A stretch of 64,000 bases of DNA, taken from contig NZ_FZOF01000002.1 of assembly GCF_900188405.1 (NCBI RefSeq), forward strand, positions 62,001 through 126,000. The letters run 5' to 3'. The notes under the pieces were generated by a model, which was not told where the DNA came from, did not search any database, and saw only the letters and a program-made list of their open reading frames with translations. Below are positions 45,148 to 56,236 of the stretch, one piece after another; within the stretch, counting starts at the first letter, position 1, and every line of letters begins with the position of its first letter. Origin of the DNA: Actinacidiphila glaucinigra. GTDB taxonomy: Bacteria > Actinomycetota > Actinomycetes > Streptomycetales > Streptomycetaceae. A program made the translations under genes and the position numbers.

Positions 45148-45741
45148 GTGACGAACGGCCCCGGCCCGGTCCCGCCGTACCCGCCCGCTCAGTCCAAGGC
45201 CACGGCGACCACCCTCCGCGCCATCTTCCTCGCGATCACCGCGATCAGCTGCGGCTTCCTGTCCTGCCTCCCCCTGCTGCACCTGGCCGTCCGGCGGCGC
45301 CGGGCCATGGACTGGGTCTTCTTCTGGACCGGCACCGCGGTGAGCATCGCCTCCTTCGCGACCATCGGCACGCTGTCGGACGAGAACCCCTGGACCGACG
45401 TGGCGCTGCTCACCGTCATCGCCCTCGTCCCCCTGGTCGGCGTCCACTACCTGGTGGCCGATCTGGCGCTGGCCCGGGCCGAAGGGGCGCCCGGCTACCC
45501 GTCGTACGCCACGACCGTGCCGTACCCGCCGCCGCACCAGCCGGCCCCGCCGCACCCGCAGGCGGACTACAACCCGTACCGCGCGACCCCGCCGGCACCG
45601 ACCCCGCCCCCGCCCCCCGCGCCGCAGGCCCACGTGCCGCCGCAGCCGCCCGCACCCCCGCACCAGCCGCGGATCAACCAGGTGCGGGCGGAACTGGACG
45701 AGCTGAGCGACCTGCTGCGCAAGCAGGAGGGCGGTCAGTGA
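45148..45741 (+). CDS. Proline-rich membrane protein
   Basis: The 197-residue protein has three probable transmembrane segments (TTLRAIFLAITAISCGFLSCLPLLHL, FFWTGTAVSIASFATI, VALLTVIALVPLVGVHYLVADL). A long Pro/Tyr-rich cytosolic tail follows (PPPHQPAPPHPQADYNPYRATPP). A terminal helical stretch (INQVRAELDELSDLLRKQE) looks like a coiled coil. It starts at GTG 45148 (GAGAGCA upstream). Its stop overlaps the kinase start by four bases (GTGA), so it is co-translated with the Ser/Thr kinase and may be a membrane partner or substrate. Confidence 0.8.
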   Translation: MTNGPGPVPPYPPAQSKATATTLRAIFLAITAISCGFLSCLPLLHLAVRRRRAMDWVFFWTGTAVSIASFATIGTLSDENPWTDVALLTVIALVPLVGVHYLVADLALARAEGAPGYPSYATTVPYPPPHQPAPPHPQADYNPYRATPPAPTPPPPPAPQAHVPPQPPAPPHQPRINQVRAELDELSDLLRKQEGGQ

Positions 45742-47267
45742 ACGGACGGATCGTCGCCGGCCGTTACGAGCTGGCCACGGTCCTCGGCCAGGGCGGCATG
45801 GGCCAGGTGTGGACCGCGTACGACCGGCGGCTGGACCGGCGGGTGGCCGTGAAGCTGCTGCGCCCGGACAAGGTGGCGGGCGGCGCCGACGCCGAGGAGC
45901 TGCGCCGGCGCTTCGTGCGGGAGTGCCGGGTCACCGCGCAGGTCGACCATCCGGGGCTGGTCACCGTCCACGACGCGGGCAGCGACGCCGACGAGCTGTA
46001 CTTCGTCATGCAGTACGTGGAGGGCGCCGACCTCGCCGACCACCTCGCCGAGCACGACCCCTACCCCTGGCCGTGGGCGGTCGCCGTCGCGGCGCAGCTG
46101 TGCGCCGTGCTGGCGGCGGTGCACGCGGTGCCGATCGTGCACCGCGACCTCAAGCCCCGCAACGTGATGGTGCGTCCGGACGGCACCGTGGTCGTCCTGG
46201 ACCTCGGTGTCGCCTCCGTGCTCGACACCGACACGACCCGGCTCACCCACACCGGCACGCCCATCGGGACCCCCGCGTACATGGCGCCGGAGCAGGCGAT
46301 GAGCGGCGCCGTCGGACCCCGCACGGACCTGTACGCGCTCGGGGTGCTGCTGCACGAACTGGTCAGCGGCACCGTCCCGTTCGCGGGTTCCACGGCGCTC
46401 GGCGTGCTCCACCGGCATCTGTACGAGCAGCCCGTGCCGCTGCGGCAGGTGCGCCCGGAGGTGCCGGAGCCGCTGGAGGCGCTGGTGCTGCAGCTGCTGG
46501 CGAAGGACCCGCAGCACCGGCCGTCCGACGCCCAGGAGACCTACCGCAGGCTGGCGCCGCTGCTGCCGGTGCCCGGTTCCGTCCACCGCCCCCTCGGGCC
46601 GATGGACCCCACGCGCCCCTTCCTGAGACCGCTCGCCCCCTGGCCGGACCGCCCGGCCGCCCCGTCGCAGCCGACCCCCGCCCCGGGCATGACCGCGGCC
46701 CCCGCGGGCCACGGCATCGCGGAGGCGGTCGACGAGGTGAAGCGGCTGCTCGACGCCGGGCGCATCACCCAGGCGGTCGACATCCTGGGCGGCGTGCTGC
46801 CGGCCGCCGCGGAGAAGCACGGCGAGCAGTCACCGGTCGTGCGGATGCTGCGCAAGCAGTACGCGGCCACCCTGATGGAGGACGGCCAGTACCGCCGGGC
46901 CCTGCCGGAGCTGCGCCGGCTCGCGGACGAACTCGCCGCGGAGTCGGGGCCGCTGGGACGTCAGTCGCTGCAGTACCGCTACGAGGCCGCGCAGTGCCTG
47001 GAGCAGTTGGGCGAGGCCCCCGCGGCGCTCGCCGAGTACCGGGCGCTGCTGCCCTCCTTCGAGCAGTACCGCGCCACCGACCCCGATCTGCCGCTGGAGG
47101 TGCGGCGCCGCATCGGCCACCTGCTGCTGTCGGTGGGCGACCGCATGGCCGCCCACGACGTGCTGTCCCGTCTGCTGTACGACTCCGACCGGGTGCACGG
47201 CCCGCACCACCCCTTCTCGCTGGAGGTCCGGCGGACGCTGACCTGGCTGGGGCAGGTGGGCCGCTAG
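45738..47267 (+). CDS. Serine/threonine protein kinase with C-terminal helical repeats
   Basis: The 509-residue kinase of the PknB type has glycine loop GQGGMGQVW, K39 (AVKLL), HRDLKPRNV (D137) and DLGVA in place of DFG, as often in Streptomyces. TPIGTPAYMAPEQ (APE) is also present. No transmembrane helix is seen after the kinase domain, so it is probably cytosolic. The linker (~280-330) is Pro-rich. Residues ~330-505 form TPR-like helical repeats (RRALPELRRLADELAAESGPLGRQSLQYRYEAAQCLEQLGEAPAALAEYRALLPSF) for partner binding. It forms an overlapping operon with the membrane protein upstream. Confidence 0.92.
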   Translation: MNGRIVAGRYELATVLGQGGMGQVWTAYDRRLDRRVAVKLLRPDKVAGGADAEELRRRFVRECRVTAQVDHPGLVTVHDAGSDADELYFVMQYVEGADLADHLAEHDPYPWPWAVAVAAQLCAVLAAVHAVPIVHRDLKPRNVMVRPDGTVVVLDLGVASVLDTDTTRLTHTGTPIGTPAYMAPEQAMSGAVGPRTDLYALGVLLHELVSGTVPFAGSTALGVLHRHLYEQPVPLRQVRPEVPEPLEALVLQLLAKDPQHRPSDAQETYRRLAPLLPVPGSVHRPLGPMDPTRPFLRPLAPWPDRPAAPSQPTPAPGMTAAPAGHGIAEAVDEVKRLLDAGRITQAVDILGGVLPAAAEKHGEQSPVVRMLRKQYAATLMEDGQYRRALPELRRLADELAAESGPLGRQSLQYRYEAAQCLEQLGEAPAALAEYRALLPSFEQYRATDPDLPLEVRRRIGHLLLSVGDRMAAHDVLSRLLYDSDRVHGPHHPFSLEVRRTLTWLGQVGR

Positions 47268-47285
47268 GCCGTGGCGGTACGGGGC

Positions 47286-48677
47286 CTACCGTCCGCCGCG
47301 GGCGCGCAGGCGGCGGGCCACGCGCACCATCCGGCGCACGGTGGTGTTGCCGCGCAGCCGCTGGGTGGCGCTGAGCGGGCCGCCGCCGGGCAGCCCCAGC
47401 GAGGTGAGGCGGCGCCGCCGGAAGTAGTGCTCGGTGTCCGGGCCGAGGTTGTCCCGCAGCCAGGCCGTCGTCTCCTCGCGCAGCCCGGGGTGCATCCTGG
47501 GCTGCATGCAGAAGCCCACGGCCCGTACGAGCGCGGCGAGTTCCCCGGCCGCGCCGCCCCGGCCGTCCGGGACGGCGACGTCGGGCACGAGGTGGTCGAC
47601 GATGGTCAGCGGGACGCGGTTGCTGTTCTGGTAGGGAGTGAGCCGGTCCAGCACCAGCCGGGTCCCGGCCCGTGCGATCGCGACGTCGTAGTAGGCGCTC
47701 GCGGTGAGCATCGCGGTGGAGAAGCAGCCGACGACCAGGCGCGGCCGGCAGACCTCGTACAGCGTCTCGGCCAGCAGCGGGCCGTCGAGGACGCGCAGCC
47801 GTGCGCCCTCGGCCGCCGCGGCCTCCTCCATCGCCCTGGAGTAGCCTGCCGGCGCCGTGGGGTGGGGCTTGAAGACGATCGAGCGGTGCCCCGCGGCGAT
47901 CGCGCCGCGGACCATGGTGACGTGCAGCTCCTCTTCCTCCTGCGGGCTGAGGATGCGCAGGGCGGCGAGGTACTGGCCGAGCAGCACCGCGGTCGGCGGG
48001 TCCTCGGCGAGCGCGGCGAGCCGGGGGTCGTCCGCCGCCTCGACGGCGATCTCCTTGAGGACGGCCCGGAAGGCGTCGTCGGGGACGAGTTCGGGTTCCG
48101 CGCCGGTCTCGGCCAGCAGCAGCGGGCGCAGCCCGGGGACCAGGTCGAGGTGGAGGACCCGCTGGACGCGGTTGCCGAGGGGGCCGGGCAGCTTCTCGCG
48201 GGTGGGCCCGTAGCTCATCAGGCCGTCCGCGTACACGTGGACGGCGCTCTCGGCGAAGATCGTGGCGAGCGCGCGTGCCGGGTTGACCTGGATCGACTCC
48301 ACCACGAGCTCGACGGGGACGTCGCCGAGGCCCCAGGAGTGCCGGAACAGCCGCTGCCAGATGGAGCTCTCGTCCTCCAACGGGGCCCACTTGGATGGGC
48401 GGTGCGGGTGGATCACCTCGTTCCACGAGACGACCTCGTCGAAGCGGGTGACGATCCGCCGGTACCCGTACATGTCGGAGAGCTGGACGACCGTCTCGGG
48501 GACCGGGGCGTTGTTGCTCACCAGCAGGACGCGCCGGGTGCCGGCACGCGGCCCGAAGGCACCGGCGTCCAGCGCGGCGGCGAGCGTCGCGGCGCCGTAG
48601 AGGGTCGAGACCTCGAAGATCTGGGCCCGGTCGTGGTTCATGCTCTCCTCGGCGGGGTCCGCCATGGTCACGGTCAT
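47286..48677 (-). CDS. Polysialyltransferase-family (POLYST-like) glycosyltransferase
   Basis: The 463-residue cytosolic protein resembles bacterial alpha-2,8-polysialyltransferases. It has an N-terminal VLLVSNNAPVPETVVQL, then VHVYADGLMSYGP (resembling the D/E-D/E-G motif of GT38/GT52), HRSIVFKPHPTAP (the HP motif binding the CMP donor) and RPRLVVGCFSTAMLTASAYYDV (S/T-pair region). The C-terminal ~50 residues are basic (RRRRLTSLGL... RRMVRVARRLRARGGR). Donor and acceptor are not known; a CMP-nonulosonate donor would be typical. Its ATG 48677 follows the upstream GT2 stop (48680) by two bases, so the pair is one operon. Confidence 0.8.
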   Translation of the reverse strand: MTVTMADPAEESMNHDRAQIFEVSTLYGAATLAAALDAGAFGPRAGTRRVLLVSNNAPVPETVVQLSDMYGYRRIVTRFDEVVSWNEVIHPHRPSKWAPLEDESSIWQRLFRHSWGLGDVPVELVVESIQVNPARALATIFAESAVHVYADGLMSYGPTREKLPGPLGNRVQRVLHLDLVPGLRPLLLAETGAEPELVPDDAFRAVLKEIAVEAADDPRLAALAEDPPTAVLLGQYLAALRILSPQEEEELHVTMVRGAIAAGHRSIVFKPHPTAPAGYSRAMEEAAAAEGARLRVLDGPLLAETLYEVCRPRLVVGCFSTAMLTASAYYDVAIARAGTRLVLDRLTPYQNSNRVPLTIVDHLVPDVAVPDGRGGAAGELAALVRAVGFCMQPRMHPGLREETTAWLRDNLGPDTEHYFRRRRLTSLGLPGGGPLSATQRLRGNTTVRRMVRVARRLRARGGR

Positions 48678-48679
48678 CG

Positions 48680-49648
48680 TCACGCCGCCTTCCGCGCGCC
48701 GGCGCGCAGCCGCAGGAGCACGTCCGCGCGCTGGATGTCCATCTCGGCCAGGGTCCGGTCCAGGACGTCCTGCGGCATGCGGGCCAGCGCCGCGGCGGAC
48801 TGCCGCCTGAGCTGCCGGCCGGTCTCGGCGTCGTAGCGCCGCACGTTGGACATGTGGAAGGCGATCAGCGCGCAGTAGGTGCGCACGATCTTGGGCAGGA
48901 AGCGGTCGGCCTCGCGGTCGGCGAGGACGCCGTCGAGTATCGCGTCGTGGGCCGGTATGAAGTCCAGCTGCCGGCCGTCGCTGATCTGGGTGAGCGAGTC
49001 GCTGACCCCGCGCCGGTAGAAGACGCCGAGCGGGCGGATCACCGCGAAGGACTCGGCCGTCAGGTGCAGCCGCCAGACCCACTCGCGGTCCTCCGCGGTC
49101 CGCAGGCCGGTGCTGTAGCGCATACCGCCGTCCTCGAAGAGCCGGCGGTGGTAGATCCCGGCCCAGACGAAGGGGTAGTCGACCATGGTGGACACGTGCG
49201 AGGGCGCGATCGCGTCGCGCGGGTCGAGCACGGCGTCCCAGCGCCTGGCCGGCGGGCGGTGCACGACCCGCTCGGCGCCGGTGGCCTTGACGTGCCCGGT
49301 GCGCACGAAGTCGCAGCCCAGGGTCTCGATGCCGGCGACGAGCTCGTCGAGGTAGCCGCGGGCGTACCAGTCGTCGCCGTCCAGGAAGGTCACGTACTGC
49401 CCGCGGGCCGCGTCCAGTCCGGTGTTGCGGGACTGGGCGACGCCCTTGTTCACCTCGTGCCGGATCACCCTCAGGCCCGGCAGCCGGCGCTCCCAGTGGT
49501 CGAGGATCTCCGGGGTGCCGTCCGTCGAGTGGTCGTCGACGAGGATGAACTCGGTGCCCTCCCCCGCGTTGTTGGCAAGCCCGCACAACATGTCCGGTGC
49601 GTATGCCTGAATATTGCGGAAGGGAACGATTACCGAAAGTTTGGGCAC
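48680..49648 (-). CDS. Family 2 glycosyltransferase
   Basis: The 322-residue GT-A enzyme begins VPKLSVIVPFRNIQAYAPDML, with FILVDDHSTDGTPEIL, GVAQSRNTGLDAARGQYVTFLDGDDWY (DxD-like metal site) and the acceptor region FVWAGIYHRRLFEDGGMRY and REWVWRLHL. It transfers an NDP-sugar to an acceptor glycan. GTG 49648 is chosen because the family's conserved start is there; an upstream frame to 49714 lacks homology. It is divergent from the GT29-like gene and in one operon with the POLYST-like gene. Confidence 0.88.
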   Translation of the reverse strand: MPKLSVIVPFRNIQAYAPDMLCGLANNAGEGTEFILVDDHSTDGTPEILDHWERRLPGLRVIRHEVNKGVAQSRNTGLDAARGQYVTFLDGDDWYARGYLDELVAGIETLGCDFVRTGHVKATGAERVVHRPPARRWDAVLDPRDAIAPSHVSTMVDYPFVWAGIYHRRLFEDGGMRYSTGLRTAEDREWVWRLHLTAESFAVIRPLGVFYRRGVSDSLTQISDGRQLDFIPAHDAILDGVLADREADRFLPKIVRTYCALIAFHMSNVRRYDAETGRQLRRQSAAALARMPQDVLDRTLAEMDIQRADVLLRLRAGARKAA

Positions 49649-50021
49649 CTGGGAATCCAGACGATCTCGAGGCGGGCCACGGACTCCGGCCCCCCGGACG
49701 GTGCCGGAGGGCAAGCGTATAGGACTAGATCCAGAACGGGCGTCGAGAATGCTTCCGCAGGGTGAACACAGGGAATACGGAATGCGAACTCCCGCTTTTC
49801 CGCACGTCGCCCGCGGTCCCCTCCGCCCGCCGCCCAGGTCGTTCGCATCCGATTAGATCCTCGTTCACTTGGACGTCACATCCGCTCCCTATGGTGATCG
49901 CCTCCGCCCCATGTGCCGTGCGCGTGTCCATGTGCGTCGAGGTGCCCCGGGCGGGGTCTGTTGATCCGCGCGGGAAACCCATGCAGTTCTCCCCAGCGGC
50001 CGTGTCATTGTTGGGAGCAGC
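49649..50021. other. Divergent promoter region of the glycosyltransferase genes
   Basis: 373 bases without gene between the minus-strand GT operon and the plus-strand GT29-like operon. The sequence is less GC-rich than its flanks, with TTCCGC and GGAATACGGAATGCG around 49770-49790 and ATTAGATCCTCGTTCACTTGG around 49852-49872. Promoters in both directions are expected here; none is certain. Confidence 0.5.
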
Positions 50022-51491
50022 ATGGTCAAGTTCCGGGCTGGATGGCTCGAGAAAAGATTGGACAACGCCGCGGGGGCGGATATTCCGATCGCTTCGGTTT
50101 CCGTGGCGGAGTGCGTCCGGTCCTGCGCCGTCCACGGCGGCAAGCTCGTCAAGAACCTGGACTGGAAGAAGGGCCAGCTCGCCGAAGCCATCCGGGAACT
50201 TCTCGCCCGGTACGCGGCCGCGATGACCGATCCCGGGGACGCCGCCGCGCTCTCCGGCGGGAAGAGCACCTGGCCGAAGTCGAACCCCGAGGTGTTCGAC
50301 GCCCTCCTCGAGGTGGGCAACAAGGCCGTGGACGTGCGGGGCGCCGACGAGCTGCGGCTCGCGACGCGCATCACCGAGACGATCTTCGGTGTCCGCAAGC
50401 AGTCCCGGGCCGGCTGGCGGCTGCGGGCGCGCCTGATGGACGCGCTGGGCGACGACGCCGCAACCATCGCCGCGTACGAGCGTTTCCTGGCCCTCACGCC
50501 CAACGACGACCTCAACGTCGCGGGCCGCATCACCAAGCTCCAGGAGAGCGGCGAGCGCCTGGCCGAGACGCTGGAGCTGCTTGAGCAGGAGGCCCCCGGC
50601 GCCCGTGAGTTCAAGGGCGCCCCGGACACCGAGCTGTGGGCGGAGGGCCTGGCCCTCAAGGAGGCCGGCGACTGGGAGCGTGCCGAGCCCCGGCTCGTGG
50701 CCGCGCTGGTCTCGATGGCCGAGCAGGACCGTCCCTCCACCTCCGTGCGCGCGGCGCTGACGGACTACGTGAACCTCCGTCTGGAGCGGGACCGCGGCCG
50801 GCTGGCCGGCTCGACCCGGCTGCTGGAGCTGTACGCCGACGACCGCCGGCTGCGCGAGCTGGACCCGATCGCGGACCCCGGGCTGACCGGTACCGAGATG
50901 GTCGCCCTCAGCGACTTCCGCAACCTGATAGCGGGGAAGACGATCTGCCTGGTCGCCAACTCCCAGCGGGTGGGCACCAGCACGATGGGTCAGGAGATCG
51001 ACTCCTACGACCTCGTCGTCCGCTTCAACTCCTACCGGATCGAGGCGCCGGCCACCGGCACCAAGACCGACATCCACGCGACGATCCACCTGCACAACTA
51101 CAACTGGGACAAGAAGGTCGAGACGCGGCTGGTCTTCAGCGGCAGCCACCACCAGTGGCGCAACTCGGTCCGCCGCCGCCTGGTCCCCGGCGCCCAGCGC
51201 TACGTGGGCGACCGGACGCTGCGCTGGCCGGTGCGCGAGATCGGCCGGGTCGGCGAGGACGTGATGCCCTCGATCCCCACCAGCGGCTTCAACATGCTGT
51301 GGCTGCTGGACTTCCTGGACGTCAGCCCGAAGATCGACCTCATCGGGTTCGACTTCTACGACAGCGGTGCCTACCGCCTTCAGGAAGCCATGAAGCTCCC
51401 GATCGCCACCGCGCACGGCTACTCGGACGAAAAGGCCTGGGTCATGGCCCGCGCCCAGGAAGTCACTGAAATGAGGATATCGCTCCGATGA
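50022..51491 (+). CDS. GT29 sialyltransferase-like protein with N-terminal helical domain
   Basis: The 489-residue protein has a C-terminal domain with the conserved sialylmotifs of family GT29. Motif L is residues 307-355 (TICLVANSQRV... GQEIDSYDLVVRFNSYR... GTKTDIHATI). Motif S is 416-446 (PSIPTSGFNMLWLL... KIDLIGFDFYD). The motif VS histidine-x4-glutamate pair is H465/E470 (HGYSDE). Residues 1-290 are helical and TPR-like (AIAAYERFLALTPNDDLN, ALKEAGDWERAEPRLVAAL). GT29 enzymes transfer CMP-sialic acid or similar sugars in eukaryotes and some bacteria. ATG 50022 has TTGGGAGCAGC upstream. Overlaps the next gene by four bases (ATGA). Confidence 0.78.
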   Translation: MVKFRAGWLEKRLDNAAGADIPIASVSVAECVRSCAVHGGKLVKNLDWKKGQLAEAIRELLARYAAAMTDPGDAAALSGGKSTWPKSNPEVFDALLEVGNKAVDVRGADELRLATRITETIFGVRKQSRAGWRLRARLMDALGDDAATIAAYERFLALTPNDDLNVAGRITKLQESGERLAETLELLEQEAPGAREFKGAPDTELWAEGLALKEAGDWERAEPRLVAALVSMAEQDRPSTSVRAALTDYVNLRLERDRGRLAGSTRLLELYADDRRLRELDPIADPGLTGTEMVALSDFRNLIAGKTICLVANSQRVGTSTMGQEIDSYDLVVRFNSYRIEAPATGTKTDIHATIHLHNYNWDKKVETRLVFSGSHHQWRNSVRRRLVPGAQRYVGDRTLRWPVREIGRVGEDVMPSIPTSGFNMLWLLDFLDVSPKIDLIGFDFYDSGAYRLQEAMKLPIATAHGYSDEKAWVMARAQEVTEMRISLR

Positions 51492-53806
51492 CCGCCTCTG
51501 TCCCGGTTCCGGCGCCCCGGAGCGAGACGCTGACCGGCAAGCGCCGCGTCGCCTTCGCGTCGTACGTCGACGAGAACTACCTGCCCGGCTTCCTCACCCT
51601 GCTGCGCAGCCTGGCACTGACCAACCCGACGGTGTGCGAGGACTTCGTCGTCCTCTACGACGACCTGCAGCCGGCGTCGATCACCGAGATCCGCAAGCTG
51701 CACCCGCGCATCGTCATGCGCCGCGTGGTCCCCGAGCGCTACGACGACTTCGTCAAGGGCGACCCGGAGAACTACCTGGTCCGCAAGGCGTACTTCATCC
51801 TCGACGTCTTCCGGATCCGCGACTACGACACGGTGATCACGCTCGACACCGACATGGTCGTCCTCGGCGACCTGGCCGAGCTGCTGCGGATGCGGGACGG
51901 CGTCGGCGCGGTGCCGCAGTTCCTGCTGGACCAGTCGAAGCTCAACAGCGGCCTGCTGGTGATCCAGAAGGAGTACCTCACCGACGAGTTCTGCGCGCAG
52001 ATCGACGCCGTCGGCACCGCCGGCACGTACGAGCTCGACAAGCACGACCAGGGCATCCTCAACGCCCTGCTCGCGGGCAAGTTCATCAAGGTCGACCCGC
52101 GCTACAACTTCGTGAAGCGCCGCCTGTCCGGGGACCGTTCCCCCGACGAGGAAGACGTCGTCATCCTCCACTTCACCGGCCGCCACAAGCCGTGGAACGG
52201 CGGCGAGCACGGCTACTCGGGCGCCGAGGCGGCGTGGAAGGAGTACGACCTCTCCCACGCGGACTTCGTCGAGCGCTTCCTGGCGCTGGACGACGAGAAG
52301 CACCCGGACCTGCTGATCCACTTCGGCCGCCACCTCGTCGCGAGCGAGGGCCGGCACGACGGCGTCCGCGAGGTCGCCGAGGCGTACCTGGCCAAGGGCC
52401 GCTACGAGGACGCGGTGGAGATCCTCGGCCGCTCCCCCATCCCCGCCGACGAGAGCCGTTCCCACGAGCTGCTCGGCCAGGCGCTGATGGCCACCTCCCG
52501 CTACGAGGAGGCCACCGCCCACCTGCTGCTCTCCACGGCGCACGCCCCGGCCGCCGCCCGCCCCTTCGGCCGGCTGGCGAACATGGCGTGGGTCCTCGGC
52601 GACAACGCGGCCTCCCGCGACTACGCCCTGGCCGGCCTCAACGCGGACGTCAGCGACCGCGCCTGCCGGATCTCGTACGAGCGCGCGGAGGCGATCGCCG
52701 CCCGCCCGGCCGAGGCCGGCAGCCCCTCCGAGCAGCTGGCGCACGTGGCCTTCTACATGGAGCGCCAGGGCAACGCGGGCGACAAGATCCTGCCCGAGAC
52801 GGTCCGGCTCTGCTTCGGCCCGGACACCGGCGACCGCAGCTGGCACTCCATCCACGCGCACAAGCTCTTCGACGAGGCGGCCCTGGAGCGGGTGAACTCG
52901 CGCCGCGGCCTGGTCATCGGCGGCGGCGGCCTGTTCATCCCGGACACCTCTCCGAACGGCAACAGCGCCTGGCAGTGGAACGTGCCGGACCGGCTGCTGG
53001 AGAAGATCGACGTCCCGCTGGCGGTCTTCGCCGTCGGCTACAACGCCTTCGACGGCCAGTCGTACACGCGCCGCCGCTTCGAGGAGAGCCTGCGGCTGCT
53101 GGTCTCCAAGTCGGCGTTCTTCGGTCTGCGCAACCACGGCTCGGTGGAGAAGGTCCGCGCGCTGCTCCCCGCGGAGCTGCAGGACCGGGTGCTCTTCCAG
53201 CCCTGCCCGACCACCGTCTCCCGCCAGCTGGTGCCCGGCTGGCAGGACCCGGTCACGCGCGACGACACGGTGCTGATCAACTGCGCCTACGACCGCGCGG
53301 GGCTGCGCTTCGGCCACGACTACGACCACTTCCTGCGGGAGATGGCCACCGCGGTCCGCGCCATCGGCAAGCACGCCGAGGTCCGCTACGCCGCCCACGC
53401 CCTGGACGACGAGCGCTTCGTCTTCGACCTGCGGCGTGAGTACGGCATCTCGATGCCGGTCGAGCCGATGTACGACTTCGACACCGACCAGCTGCGCACC
53501 GCCTTCGCGCGCACCAAGCTGGTGATCGGCATGCGCGGCCACGCGGGCATGATCCCGTTCGGCTGCGGCACGCCCATCATCAGCCTGATCTCCCACCCGA
53601 AGATGGCGTACTTCCTGTCCGACATCGAGCGCCCCGAGTGGGGCGTCTCGGTCCACGACCGGAACCTCGGCGCCATCCTCGCGGAGCGCTCCATCGGCAT
53701 CCTGGACAACCTGTCGGCAACGGTCGCCGACGTCCACGGACGCCAGGAGGCGCTGTGGAAGGTGACGCAGGACAACGTGGCGAAGCTGAAGACCATCCTC
53801 GGCTGA
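51488..53806 (+). CDS. GT8 glycosyltransferase - polysaccharide pyruvyltransferase fusion
   Basis: The 772-residue protein appears bifunctional. Residues ~20-250 form a GT8-type domain (ASYVDENYLPGFLTLLRSL, DTVITLDTDMVVLGDLAEL with metal motif DTD at 120-122, LNSGLLVIQKEY, VILHFTGRHKPW). Residues ~290-400 are TPR-like repeats (AEAYLAKGRYEDAVEILGRSP). Residues ~425-772 form a pyruvyltransferase domain (NAGDKILPETVRLCFG, LVIGGGGLFIPD, INCAYDRAGLRFGHDYDHFLREM, LVIGMRGHAGMIPFGCGTP). It would transfer a sugar and then a pyruvyl ketal. ATG 51488 overlaps the preceding stop. Confidence 0.85.
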   Translation: MTASVPVPAPRSETLTGKRRVAFASYVDENYLPGFLTLLRSLALTNPTVCEDFVVLYDDLQPASITEIRKLHPRIVMRRVVPERYDDFVKGDPENYLVRKAYFILDVFRIRDYDTVITLDTDMVVLGDLAELLRMRDGVGAVPQFLLDQSKLNSGLLVIQKEYLTDEFCAQIDAVGTAGTYELDKHDQGILNALLAGKFIKVDPRYNFVKRRLSGDRSPDEEDVVILHFTGRHKPWNGGEHGYSGAEAAWKEYDLSHADFVERFLALDDEKHPDLLIHFGRHLVASEGRHDGVREVAEAYLAKGRYEDAVEILGRSPIPADESRSHELLGQALMATSRYEEATAHLLLSTAHAPAAARPFGRLANMAWVLGDNAASRDYALAGLNADVSDRACRISYERAEAIAARPAEAGSPSEQLAHVAFYMERQGNAGDKILPETVRLCFGPDTGDRSWHSIHAHKLFDEAALERVNSRRGLVIGGGGLFIPDTSPNGNSAWQWNVPDRLLEKIDVPLAVFAVGYNAFDGQSYTRRRFEESLRLLVSKSAFFGLRNHGSVEKVRALLPAELQDRVLFQPCPTTVSRQLVPGWQDPVTRDDTVLINCAYDRAGLRFGHDYDHFLREMATAVRAIGKHAEVRYAAHALDDERFVFDLRREYGISMPVEPMYDFDTDQLRTAFARTKLVIGMRGHAGMIPFGCGTPIISLISHPKMAYFLSDIERPEWGVSVHDRNLGAILAERSIGILDNLSATVADVHGRQEALWKVTQDNVAKLKTILG

Positions 53807-53833
53807 GCCTCCCCGGAGGGCCGGTCGTTCGGT

Positions 53834-53866
53834 GAGGGGCGCCGTGTCGCTGACACGGCGCCCCTC
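53834..53866. terminator. Terminator of the GT29-like operon
   Basis: A perfect 15-bp stem GAGGGGCGCCGTGTC / GACACGGCGCCCCTC with GCT loop and downstream CTTC, 27 bp past the stop. Confidence 0.9.
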
Positions 53867-53936
53867 CTTCACGTCCTCCGCACCTCGCGCGCCGTCGCGC
53901 GCGTCCAACCGCTGTCAGAGAGGGAGTCAGCAGTCC

Positions 53937-55067
53937 ATGGAACAGCCGTCCGCCAGACCCGCCGGCACCACCGGTCCCGACCGGGGCAGGGACCCCTGGT
54001 GGGACAACGCCCGGTTCGTCTCGGCCACCCTGATCGTGATCCTGCACACGATGGGCAGCATCATGGCGCAGCACCACGCGCTGCACGCCCTGCACGTGTC
54101 CACCTGGGCGCTGCGCGTCCCCGCCTTCGTCATCCTCGCCGGGGTCTTCAGCAGCGCCGGGCCGCTGGGCCCGCGCCAGCTGCGCGCGGTGCTGCAGAGC
54201 ATCGTCGTGCCCGCGCTGCTGTTCAGCGTCCTGTTCTCGCTGGAGGCGTACTGGCTCGGCGCCGAATTCACCCTGCACATCGCGCAGCTCCCGTGGACCC
54301 TGTGGTTCCTGATGGCGCTCTTCTTCTGGCGGCTGCTGCTCCCGCTGGTCGTGCAGCTGCGGCATCCCCTGCTCGTCACCACCGTCGTGGCCCTGGCCGT
54401 CGGCTACATCGACGAGTTCGGGATGCTCTTCGCCGCCAGCCGCACCCTGGTCTACATGCCGCTGTTCTATCTCGGCTGGAGGATCGGCCAGGGCTCCCTG
54501 CGGACCTGGTTCACCAGCCGGTGGAGCCTGCCCCTGGCCGCCGCGGGTCTCGTCGCGGCCGGTGTGGTGGGGTGGCTGTGGCACCGGGACATCAGCGGCG
54601 CCTGGCTCTCCATGAGCGACACCTACCGGCCCGAGGACCCCATGAGCCTGCGGTGGGCCTGGCTGATCCGGCTCGCCGTGCTCGCCTCGGCGGCGTTCCT
54701 GGTGCTGTGCTTCCTGCGGCTGGTGCCGCGGCGACGCCTGCCGCTGCTCTCCGCGCTGGGCGCCGGCGGCTTCACCATCTACCTGCTGCACCCGCTGTTC
54801 ATCATGCCGGTGCGGGAGCACGGCCTGATCGCCAAGGTGAACACCCCCCTGGAGCAGATCGGCCTGGTGCTGTGCGCCCTGACCCTGTCGATGGTGCTCG
54901 GCTCCACTCTGGTGCGACGGGTGTTCCAGCCGCTGATCCGGCCGCCGGTCACCGGGCTGTTCGCCCGGACGCCGGTCGTCCAGCGGCCCGTGACGGCGCC
55001 CTGGGCCGCACCGCTGACACCGCAGGAACAGCCGTCGGCGCCGGAGCCGGCCGTGGCGGCACGCTGA
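53937..55067 (+). CDS. Acyltransferase 3 family membrane protein
   Basis: The 376-residue protein has ten or so transmembrane helices and the acyltransferase-3 pattern: DNARFVSATLIVILHTMG (residues ~24-41, with the conserved H) and VPAFVILAGVFS (the R/F-x-F loop). LPWTLWFLMALFFWRLLLPL and FTIYLLHPLFIMP at the end are also visible. It would O-acetylate (or succinylate) surface glycans. ATG 53937 has AGGGAG upstream; a longer frame from 53832 overlaps the preceding terminator and is unlikely. It is unlike the other two acyltransferases nearby in sequence. Confidence 0.88.
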   Translation: MEQPSARPAGTTGPDRGRDPWWDNARFVSATLIVILHTMGSIMAQHHALHALHVSTWALRVPAFVILAGVFSSAGPLGPRQLRAVLQSIVVPALLFSVLFSLEAYWLGAEFTLHIAQLPWTLWFLMALFFWRLLLPLVVQLRHPLLVTTVVALAVGYIDEFGMLFAASRTLVYMPLFYLGWRIGQGSLRTWFTSRWSLPLAAAGLVAAGVVGWLWHRDISGAWLSMSDTYRPEDPMSLRWAWLIRLAVLASAAFLVLCFLRLVPRRRLPLLSALGAGGFTIYLLHPLFIMPVREHGLIAKVNTPLEQIGLVLCALTLSMVLGSTLVRRVFQPLIRPPVTGLFARTPVVQRPVTAPWAAPLTPQEQPSAPEPAVAAR

Positions 55068-55074
55068 GGTGATC

Positions 55075-55111
55075 ACGACGGAGCCCCCCGCCGCGGCGGG
55101 GGCTCCGTCGT
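55075..55111. terminator. Bidirectional terminator between acyltransferases
   Basis: ACGACGGAGCCCCCCGCC and GGCGGGGGCTCCGTCGT form a 17-bp stem with one bulged C, between convergent stops at 55067 and 55121. Confidence 0.85.
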
Positions 55112-55120
55112 CGTACCGGG

Positions 55121-56236
55121 TCAGCCCAGCCAGCGGTTGAGCCGCAGGCGCGTCCACAGCAGGCTGGCGGCGAAGGAGAGCACCACCGTCCCCGTCACCA
55201 GCAGCGTGATCATGACGGCGGCGCCCAGCCAGCCCGCGTCGGCGGAGACGAGGTGCGGGGCGAGCGCCCGCAGGAACATCAGGTGCACCAGGTAGGCGCC
55301 GAAGGCCGCACCGCCGAGCCGGGACACCAGCGGCCGCAGGCGCTCGGGGATGCTGATCCGGTTGAGGGCCATCACCAGGGCGCCCGCCAGGAACGGCACG
55401 GCCAGCCCCGCGTAGGGCGAGGGGTAGTGCACCCAGTGCTCGTACGCCACGACCGCGGCCCACGCGCAGACCCCGCCCGCCAGCCACATCAGGCGCCGGC
55501 GGCGTCCGGTGGTGGCCGCCAGCGGCAGAGCGAGCAGCGCGGAGCCGGCGGCGGCGTAGGCGACCTGGTACGGGGAGAGGTTCCACTCGAAGTCGGGCAG
55601 GCCCACGTGGAGGACCTTGCCGACGTCGCCCAGGAAGGTCGGCGCGATGGCCAGCAGGACGAGCAGGCTGCCCAGGGCCCACGGCCGCTTCCCCGCCTTG
55701 ATCAGGGCGGCGAGCGAGAGCAGCAGGATCACCGGCACATAGGCGTACAGGTACCAGAGGTGGTAGGCGGGCTGGATGGAGCCGAAGAGCGACTCGAAGG
55801 CCAGCCGCTGGGTGGGCCGGGAGTTGGTGTCCCGGATCCAGTCCCAGGCGAGGTAGGCGGCGGTCCACACCCCCATCGGCACCACGATGCGGGTCAGCCG
55901 TCTGCGGACCTGCGTGCCGTCCCGGGGGGTGGCGCCGACCAGCACGACCCAGCCGGCGATCGCGAAGAAGAGCGGCACCGCGCACCGGGTCAGCCCGTCC
56001 GCGACGAGCCCGGTCCAGTAGACGGGCCGGCCCCCGGAGGGCTCGCGGCCCACGGCGTTGAGGAGCTGGCCCGCGGCGTGGCAGACGATGACACCGATGG
56101 AGCACAGGACGCGCAGCAGGTCGATGTCGTGTCTGTGCTCACGCGGCCGGGCGGCGGGCGCGGCGGACGCCTCGCTCGTCCCGGTCGCGTGACCGGTGGT
56201 GGGGGCGGGGGCGGCGGTGGTCGTCTGGGCGGAGAT
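55121..56236 (-). CDS. Acyltransferase 3 family membrane protein, start unresolved
   Basis: Membrane O-acyltransferase with DIDLLRVLCSIGVIVCHAAGQLL (first helix with the conserved H), VPLFFAIAGWVVLVGA, WTAAYLAWDWIRDTNSRPTQ, SIQPAYHLWYLYAYVPVILLL and FGAYLVHLMFLRAL. The homologous frame clearly continues upstream past GTG 56053 to about 56242 but contains no ATG, GTG or TTG in this part. A TGA stands at 56243, and GTG 56246 is one frame off. The best-spaced start candidate is the ATC at 56236, nine bases after GGGAG, or a one-base frameshift may separate the gene from GTG 56246. Paralogue of the acyltransferase at 59722. Confidence 0.75.
   Translation of the reverse strand: MSAQTTTAAPAPTTGHATGTSEASAAPAARPREHRHDIDLLRVLCSIGVIVCHAAGQLLNAVGREPSGGRPVYWTGLVADGLTRCAVPLFFAIAGWVVLVGATPRDGTQVRRRLTRIVVPMGVWTAAYLAWDWIRDTNSRPTQRLAFESLFGSIQPAYHLWYLYAYVPVILLLSLAALIKAGKRPWALGSLLVLLAIAPTFLGDVGKVLHVGLPDFEWNLSPYQVAYAAAGSALLALPLAATTGRRRRLMWLAGGVCAWAAVVAYEHWVHYPSPYAGLAVPFLAGALVMALNRISIPERLRPLVSRLGGAAFGAYLVHLMFLRALAPHLVSADAGWLGAAVMITLLVTGTVVLSFAASLLWTRLRLNRWLG

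Follow-up and report, generated by a model that had tools for sequence, protein, structure and literature searches.

What would sialyltransferase- and polysialyltransferase-like enzymes make in an actinomycete whose genes for them lie apart from neuA and neuB? The question is raised by a 64,000-nucleotide (nt) stretch of Actinacidiphila glaucinigra (contig NZ_FZOF01000002.1, positions 62,001 to 126,000; hereafter the window), in which two divergent operons at 47286-53806 encode a GT2 glycosyltransferase and a polyST-family transferase on the minus strand and a GT29-like protein and a GT8-pyruvyltransferase fusion on the plus strand. We consider it fairly likely that these four genes form an accessory module of the pathway for teichulosonic acid, a wall polymer of the nonulosonate ketodeoxynononic acid (Kdn) type, and that the module adds nonulosonate, probably an alpha-hexose, and pyruvate. 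This reading is built on the order of the genes, their homology, the predicted fold, conserved motifs, the linkage with neuA and neuB seen in relatives, and PHO-box-like sites; from these we infer every substrate, linkage, regulator, and partner named below.

Results

Two divergent operons encode the four-gene module

The original prediction had described a POLYST-like enzyme plus a GT2, and a protein with GT29 sialylmotifs plus a GT8-pyruvyltransferase fusion, in divergent operons, and profile matches confirmed this layout. On the minus strand, the first gene encodes the GT2 glycosyltransferase (48680..49714; PF00535, 103.9 bits) and the second a polyST-family transferase of 463 residues, the cassette-type copy PST2 (47286..48677; PF07388, E 2.5e-27, 96.7 bits versus a cut-off of 23.3). 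The listed start of the GT2 gene is a TTG, whereas a GTG near 49648 marks the point from which it resembles its relatives. The plus-strand operon begins with the gene of a protein of 489 residues with tetratricopeptide repeats (TPR) and a GT29-like domain (50022..51491; PF00777, 23.2 bits versus a cut-off of 23), followed by that of a 772-residue GT8-TPR-polysaccharide pyruvyltransferase fusion (51488..53806; PF01501, 70.6 bits; PF04230, 56.7 bits versus a cut-off of 25.3), whose start overlaps the GT29 stop by 4 nt in the window and in 64 of 70 loci.

The signature motifs of GT8 are DxD and a C-terminal HxxGxxKPW, and the window fusion has DTD and HFTGRHKPW; the motif pair is found in 32 of 70 cassettes. 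The TPR-like repeats of the fusion score under their profile cut-offs. The pyruvyltransferase domain is the best conserved part of the cassette. It shares PF04230 with CsaB-type pyruvyltransferases but is fused to GT8 and TPR parts, and it lies far below the cut-off of the CsaB equivalog TIGR03609 (27.1 bits versus 213.1), so by that test the protein is not a CsaB.

The C-terminal domain of the GT29-like protein is predicted to have a GT29 fold

The Pfam match that names the GT29-like protein is barely above its cut-off and spans only residues 310-354, that is, sialylmotif L (50949..51083, plus strand). The original prediction had proposed a structure-based search, and we modeled the C-terminal domain (residues 252-489; 50775..51491) with AlphaFold2 at a predicted local distance difference test (pLDDT) score of 87.5. 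In Foldseek against the PDB, ranks 1 to 30 were all animal GT29 sialyltransferases, 14 of them at E values up to 0.001. A second aligner, VIA, superposed the model on ST6Gal1 (6qvt) with Z 14.5 and a root-mean-square deviation of 3.6 over 195 residues, and gave Z 11.0-12.8 for ST3Gal1, ST6GalNAc2, and ST8SiaIII. The next match after the GT29 enzymes was Methanocaldococcus jannaschii HPPK at Z 10.2, with the lowest GT29 scores within about 1 of it, and the GT42 entries CstI and CstII scored Z 7.8-8.7, so that by the fold list the domain could also belong to GT42. Since only GT29 enzymes stand in the Foldseek top 30 and the same two genes recur together in 70 of 73 loci (see below), the weak Pfam score is not a matter of chance, and in the model the C-terminal domain of the 50022-51491 protein is of the GT29 fold. 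The full-length model, made from a 13-sequence alignment that was shallower than the one behind the domain model, has a TPR-type fold at residues about 33-277 and a poor glycosyltransferase domain (pLDDT mostly below 60), and all 50 of its fold matches fell on the TPR half.

The motifs were then read against solved enzymes. A profile built from 71 C-terminal domains found ST3Gal1 (E 1.4e-6) and ST6Gal1 (4mps; 6.2e-4) among solved structures, in both cases via motif L. In human ST3Gal1, N147, S148, and N170 bind cytidine monophosphate (CMP), and H316 is the catalytic base (PMC6884586). Motif L of the window protein aligns residue by residue to ST3Gal1 and carries the CMP-binding Asn pair, with N313, S314, and N336 at the CMP-binding positions. 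The putative S motif (PTSGFN) aligns to ST3Gal1 weakly, at 2.4 bits, and the VS-like motif HxxxxE (H465...E470; HGYSDE; 51414..51431, plus strand) is retained in 33 of 70 cassettes; its His was equated with H316 of ST3Gal1 by motif alone, and motif L by sequence alignment. When the 33 sequences with an intact VS motif were selected, N313, S314, N336, T420, and G422 were also invariant, and PT[ST]GF...GF was present in 33 of 33. Of motifs L, S, and VS, which the original prediction had claimed as all three GT29 sialylmotifs, L and VS are borne out by eye and by conservation and S probably so, and the fourth, motif III, is absent.

Compared with ST6Gal1, ST3Gal1, and ST8SiaIII, the window protein is alike in predicted fold, motif L, the CMP-binding Asn pair, the VS HxxxxE, and probably the S core, but it lacks motif III, has an N-terminal TPR half, and is 15-17% identical in the fold alignments. 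One locus, L183, does have a motif-III-like HGHYYD. Because motif III is missing, we call the window protein GT29-like and not a strict member of the family.

The module lies apart from a neu locus that holds paralogues of its GT2 and polyST

Neither neuA nor neuB is present in the window module. The single NeuB match of the genome lies side by side with a NeuA-HAD fusion on a different contig, which carries a GT2 and a polyST close to them. The earlier expectation that the donor must come from elsewhere is thereby supported, with a likely donor pathway in the same genome. At this locus NeuA is fused to a HAD phosphatase domain (L027:9930-11207), which would fit a pathway via a 9-phosphate such as Kdn-9-P, and the gene between NeuA and GT2 (L027:11246-12553) matches DUF6716 at 372.9 bits, a putative glycosyltransferase. 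Another CTP_transf_3 match, 21 kb past the window (G000:C33:147187), was dropped as a NeuA candidate; it reads as GlmU, which we presume from its N terminus.

Of the 35 genomes in the genus of the window genome, 34 have NeuB and 33 have a polyST, and in 32 the two are within 6 kb on one contig. The neu locus is the standard locus of the genus, and the window GT2/polyST pair is extra. The window polyST is 54% identical to the neu-locus copy of the same genome over 452 positions, and the window GT2 is 58% identical to the neu-locus GT2 over 308 residues, starting at residue 23. In a polyST tree of 107 rows, a quick tree with no mixture model and with a long-branch warning, the window copy groups with cassette-side copies of loci from another genus, g9 (32 rows; Shimodaira-Hasegawa-like approximate likelihood ratio support 99), and is separated from the polyST at the neu locus of the same genome. 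By this placement, the cassette and at any rate its polyST share a common history.

Bacterial sialyltransferase motifs are given as (D/E)(D/E)G and HP (PMC5811610). The window polyST keeps PHP and has ADG in place of (D/E)(D/E)G; among 74 polyST relatives, PHP follows K, R, or D in 61, YA(D/E)G is present in 72, and Y(D/E)(D/E)G in none. A phmmer search of the PDB with the polyST found no relative. A third polyST-family gene of the same genome (L028:1378-2820; G000:C44:1801-2736) has lost the HP motif (APGPGAP versus KPHPTAP) and may be a decayed or repurposed copy.

In many relatives, the cassette lies near neuA and neuB

The GT29-like gene was found in 13 of 35 genomes of the window genus, in 74 of 394 genomes of the family (2 of 17 genera), and in 3 of 396 genomes of the phylum sample. 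We read 73 loci, which represent 72 of the 74 family genomes (G342 and G359 were left out) and one genome from outside the family, G701. The original prediction had named the organism a Streptomyces, which was close: the window genome belongs to genus g1, and g9, the other genus with many cassettes, is a different one. The fusion gene directly follows the GT29 gene on the same strand in 70 of the 73 loci; L134, L143, and L183, where it does not, were excluded from the motif counts. Among the 59 loci of g9, read in stretches of up to 15 kb, 54 had a polyST in the vicinity, 23 a NeuA, and 10 a NeuB. Among the 13 loci of the window genus, a polyST was nearby in 3 and NeuA or NeuB in none.

When named genomes were searched with the pyruvyltransferase domain as query, 148 relatives came up, and the best 80 (79 Streptomyces and one Planotetraspora) were read as loci that overlap partly with the 73-locus set. 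The GT29-like gene was present in 80 of these 80 and was the next gene in 79, the fusion gene of L223 being split. Within 10 kb, some contigs ending earlier, a polyST was found in 77, NeuA in 69, and NeuB in 58, which is the outcome of the neighborhood search for neuA and neuB proposed with the original prediction. Linkage was seen outside the family as well. In G701, from another family of the same class, a NeuA-HAD gene is immediately preceded by the gene of a 775-residue protein that combines a Glycos_transf_1 half with a GT29 match of 44.7 bits; the 15-kb stretch also contains NeuB and two PF04230 genes. By reading, the 775-residue protein has a motif III (HGHYYD) and a VS motif (HEVERE). 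The co-occurrence of GT29, NeuA, NeuB, and pyruvyltransferase genes in this unrelated neighborhood supports the nonulosonate reading.

In the family sample, 73 of the 74 genomes with a cassette have NeuB, compared with 228 of the 320 others (Fisher p 1e-8, uncorrected for kinship). In loci such as L145-L147, L181-L182, and L193, the cassette has its own GT2/polyST pair and no neuA or neuB in the 15-kb stretch; the NeuB of these genomes is on a different contig or, in the case of G173, at a distance of 2.3 Mb. Taken together, the window gene set looks like a displaced module, moved or duplicated from teichulosonic acid assembly.

Several further observations concern this distribution. The best-scoring named pyruvyltransferase relative is from Planotetraspora thailandica (L194:7461-11068; 82%), with a GT29-like gene before it and no polyST, NeuA, or NeuB in the 14-kb stretch, a possible case of transfer between families. 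G029, which has a window-like arrangement, carries a second full NeuB (G029:C1:6195337-6196050) about 92 kb from the cassette besides the NeuB of its standard locus. A first scan of genome contigs with the GT29-like protein as query found no relative. Against plasmids, tblastn with the GT29-like protein gave no match, and the fusion protein and the polyST had a handful of remote matches there.

PHO-box-like sites face both operons

In Streptomyces coelicolor, PhoP recognizes direct repeats of 11-nt units with a GTTCACC core (PMC4415409). The divergent promoter of the window contains two sites of this kind. The one facing the GT2-polyST operon (49757..49789, minus strand) consists of three 11-nt units, GTTCGCATTCC GTATTCCCTGT GTTCACCCTGC, with 16 of 21 core matches, and is the top score in the 64-kb window on both strands. 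The one facing the GT29 operon (49841..49873, plus strand) consists of GTTCGCATCCG ATTAGATCCTC GTTCACTTGGA, with 13 of 21 core matches; its score is unremarkable alone, and similar sites occur in L031 and L032. The pattern common to both, itself derived from the two sites, occurs nowhere else in the window.

The sites were surveyed in the two locus sets, which overlap and count related genomes, so that p-values computed from these counts come out too small. A score of at least 15 was reached upstream of 49/73 and 66/73 GT2 genes, 24/73 and 23/79 GT29 genes, and 37/527 and 28/781 other genes. Inner operon genes of the first set, used as controls, gave 0 of 179 (NeuA 24, NeuB 11, polyST 74, and fusion 70). 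These sites suggest that phosphate limitation probably turns the module on via PhoP.

The GT29 and GT8 sites may decay together

Among the 70 cassettes, the GT8 motifs (DxD and KPW) and the VS His are both intact in 32 and both missing in 37, and one cassette (L033) has the His only. Among the 37 without the VS His, N336 is kept in 2 and G422 in 7; the window cassette retains all these sites. The two characters thus agree in 69 of 70 cassettes. On a tree of the pyruvyltransferase domain, the GT8 character needs only two changes and the VS character three, and supported branches carry two pairs of changes that are independent of each other. Coupled loss is suggestive and not significant because there are only two independent events, with which a sign test cannot reach 0.05.

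Genes beside the module

A protein kinase gene with TPR-like repeats (45738-47267) adjoins the polyST gene, also in L031 and L032, possibly as mere shared gene order. Past the fusion gene lie two converging acyltransferase-3 genes (53937-55067 and 55121-56053), which could mean O-acetylation and are not a conserved part of the module. The first (53832/53937-55067) was considered as a module part and rejected, as no similar gene occurs in the nearest relative, L031, or in L032; the second is retained in L031 (95%).

Discussion

How would such a module work? In the pathway that we propose, NeuB and the NeuA-HAD fusion would make a CMP-nonulosonate from the other locus. The polyST-type enzyme and the GT2 would extend a nonulosonate/hexose chain, to which the GT29-like enzyme would add a further alpha-linked nonulosonate and the GT8 domain an alpha-hexose, and the C-terminal domain of the fusion would place a pyruvate ketal on the unit. 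All transfers would take place in the cytoplasm, where a lipid-linked precursor would serve as the acceptor and the TPR parts would keep the enzymes in contact, and PhoP would switch the module on under phosphate limitation.

Known teichulosonic acids give this proposal its frame. Streptomyces walls contain a phosphate-free polymer of galactose and Kdn (PMC11481543), and published work counts SCO4873-SCO4882, the teichulosonic acid genes of S. coelicolor, among the targets of PhoP (PMC13011467). That published PhoP control and the phosphate-free polymer fit the PHO-like sites of the window. The neu locus of the window genome (NeuB, NeuA-HAD, GT2, and polyST) would be of the same kind as the S. 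coelicolor locus; the window module lacks neuA and neuB and carries GT29-like and GT8-pyruvyltransferase genes. In Promicromonospora citrea, the teichulosonic acid contains 7,9-pyruvylated alpha-Kdn and alpha-glucose, and also carries sulfate (PMC6801904). To build such a polymer, this other organism would require one activity that transfers Kdn, one that transfers alpha-glucose, and one that attaches pyruvate as a ketal, the same three that are suggested for the window module. GT29 enzymes invert CMP-beta-sialic acids and so form alpha-linkages, and GT8 enzymes retain and form alpha-linkages as well. Given these two courses and the Promicromonospora precedent, the three domains would fit a pyruvylated alpha-Kdn/alpha-hexose unit.

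Several results weigh against this interpretation. For pyruvyl transfer, the family match is the one ground. Similarity to GT29 is weak outside motif L, and between the S and VS motifs there is, by eye, no motif III (HYYE-like), which in ST3Gal1 holds the His that acts as catalytic acid. In the window genus, 10 of 13 cassette loci have no polyST, NeuA, or NeuB in the stretch examined, and the single cassette genome without a NeuB match (G013) belongs to this genus, where NeuB is near universal (34 of 35), so co-occurrence there is uninformative. Finally, with 37 of 70 cassettes lacking the VS His and 38 lacking the GT8 motifs, the two transfers are not essential for what is conserved.

The explanation that survives best besides our own, though we think it unlikely, is that the module does not modify teichulosonic acid and instead serves to make a nonulosonate polymer of its own, a second one, or a capsule. 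It would account for the module having its own GT2 and its own polyST of a distinct clade on a contig other than that of NeuB, and for loci such as L145-L147 with such a pair and no neuA or neuB nearby. Yet no flippase, ligase, or exporter was found in a profile scan of the seven genes at 45738-56053 (no wider search was made), and the cassette is near neuA in 69 of the best 80 named relatives. The earlier suggestion of a distinct, undescribed glycopolymer system found no support in that form: the polyST and GT2 are paralogous to the genome's own neu pair, and in most of the named relatives the cassette is near neuA. What did stand of the glycan first proposed, nonulosonate-containing and possibly pyruvylated, is the nonulosonate link, with pyruvylation probable by family match.

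Less likely again is that pyruvylation is the main function, with the GT29-like and GT8 domains reduced to scaffolds or relics, as the best conserved part of the cassette is the pyruvyltransferase domain and in over half of the cassettes (37/70) the VS His is gone together with the DxD/KPW of GT8. However, both sites are intact in the window, and VS-positive sequences keep the other GT29 residues in 33 of 33; this explanation may therefore hold for other clades rather than for that of the window. We regard as quite improbable that the GT29-like domain uses another substrate (e.g. CMP-Kdo) or is a pyrophosphokinase of the M. jannaschii HPPK fold, with no link to Kdn, since HPPK as the next fold match (Z 10.2) and the missing motif III are outweighed by GT29 scores of Z 11.0-14.5, even if the lowest lies within about 1 of HPPK, by the residue-by-residue alignment of motif L, and by NeuA and NeuB neighbors in many relatives.

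With an accessory teichulosonic acid module as the preferred reading, a broader proposal can be put forward tentatively, and we hold it to be possible rather than probable: a GT29-fold sialyltransferase, of a kind known chiefly from animals and certain proteobacteria, would take part in Gram-positive wall assembly within a movable, phosphate-controlled four-gene module that builds a pyruvylated nonulosonate/alpha-hexose unit. The GT29 and GT8 sites would act as one unit, lost together at least twice and leaving only pyruvylation, and the module would be the genetic basis for pyruvylated teichulosonic acids and a source of wall variation from species to species. Bacterial GT29 enzymes were reported in 2018 from proteobacteria (23 sequences, 19 of them from alphaproteobacteria), all four motifs being present (PMC5811610); the window protein resembles them as a bacterial protein with sialylmotifs and differs in lacking one of the four. 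In the open-access papers searched, we found no GT29 in Actinomycetota, no genes for pyruvylated teichulosonic acid, and no description of the cassette.

If the proposal is true, a GT29-fold enzyme would be placed in Actinomycetota. Pyruvylated teichulosonic acid is known chemically, and the cassette is a concrete gene candidate for it that can be deleted and assayed in an ordinary Streptomyces. Variation in such modules may also matter beyond the wall itself. Which competitor's umbrella toxin lectins can bind a Streptomyces depends on its wall glycopolymers, as was shown for teichuronic-acid-like polymers (PMC13274773), and variable modules for the decoration of such walls may therefore play a part in competition.

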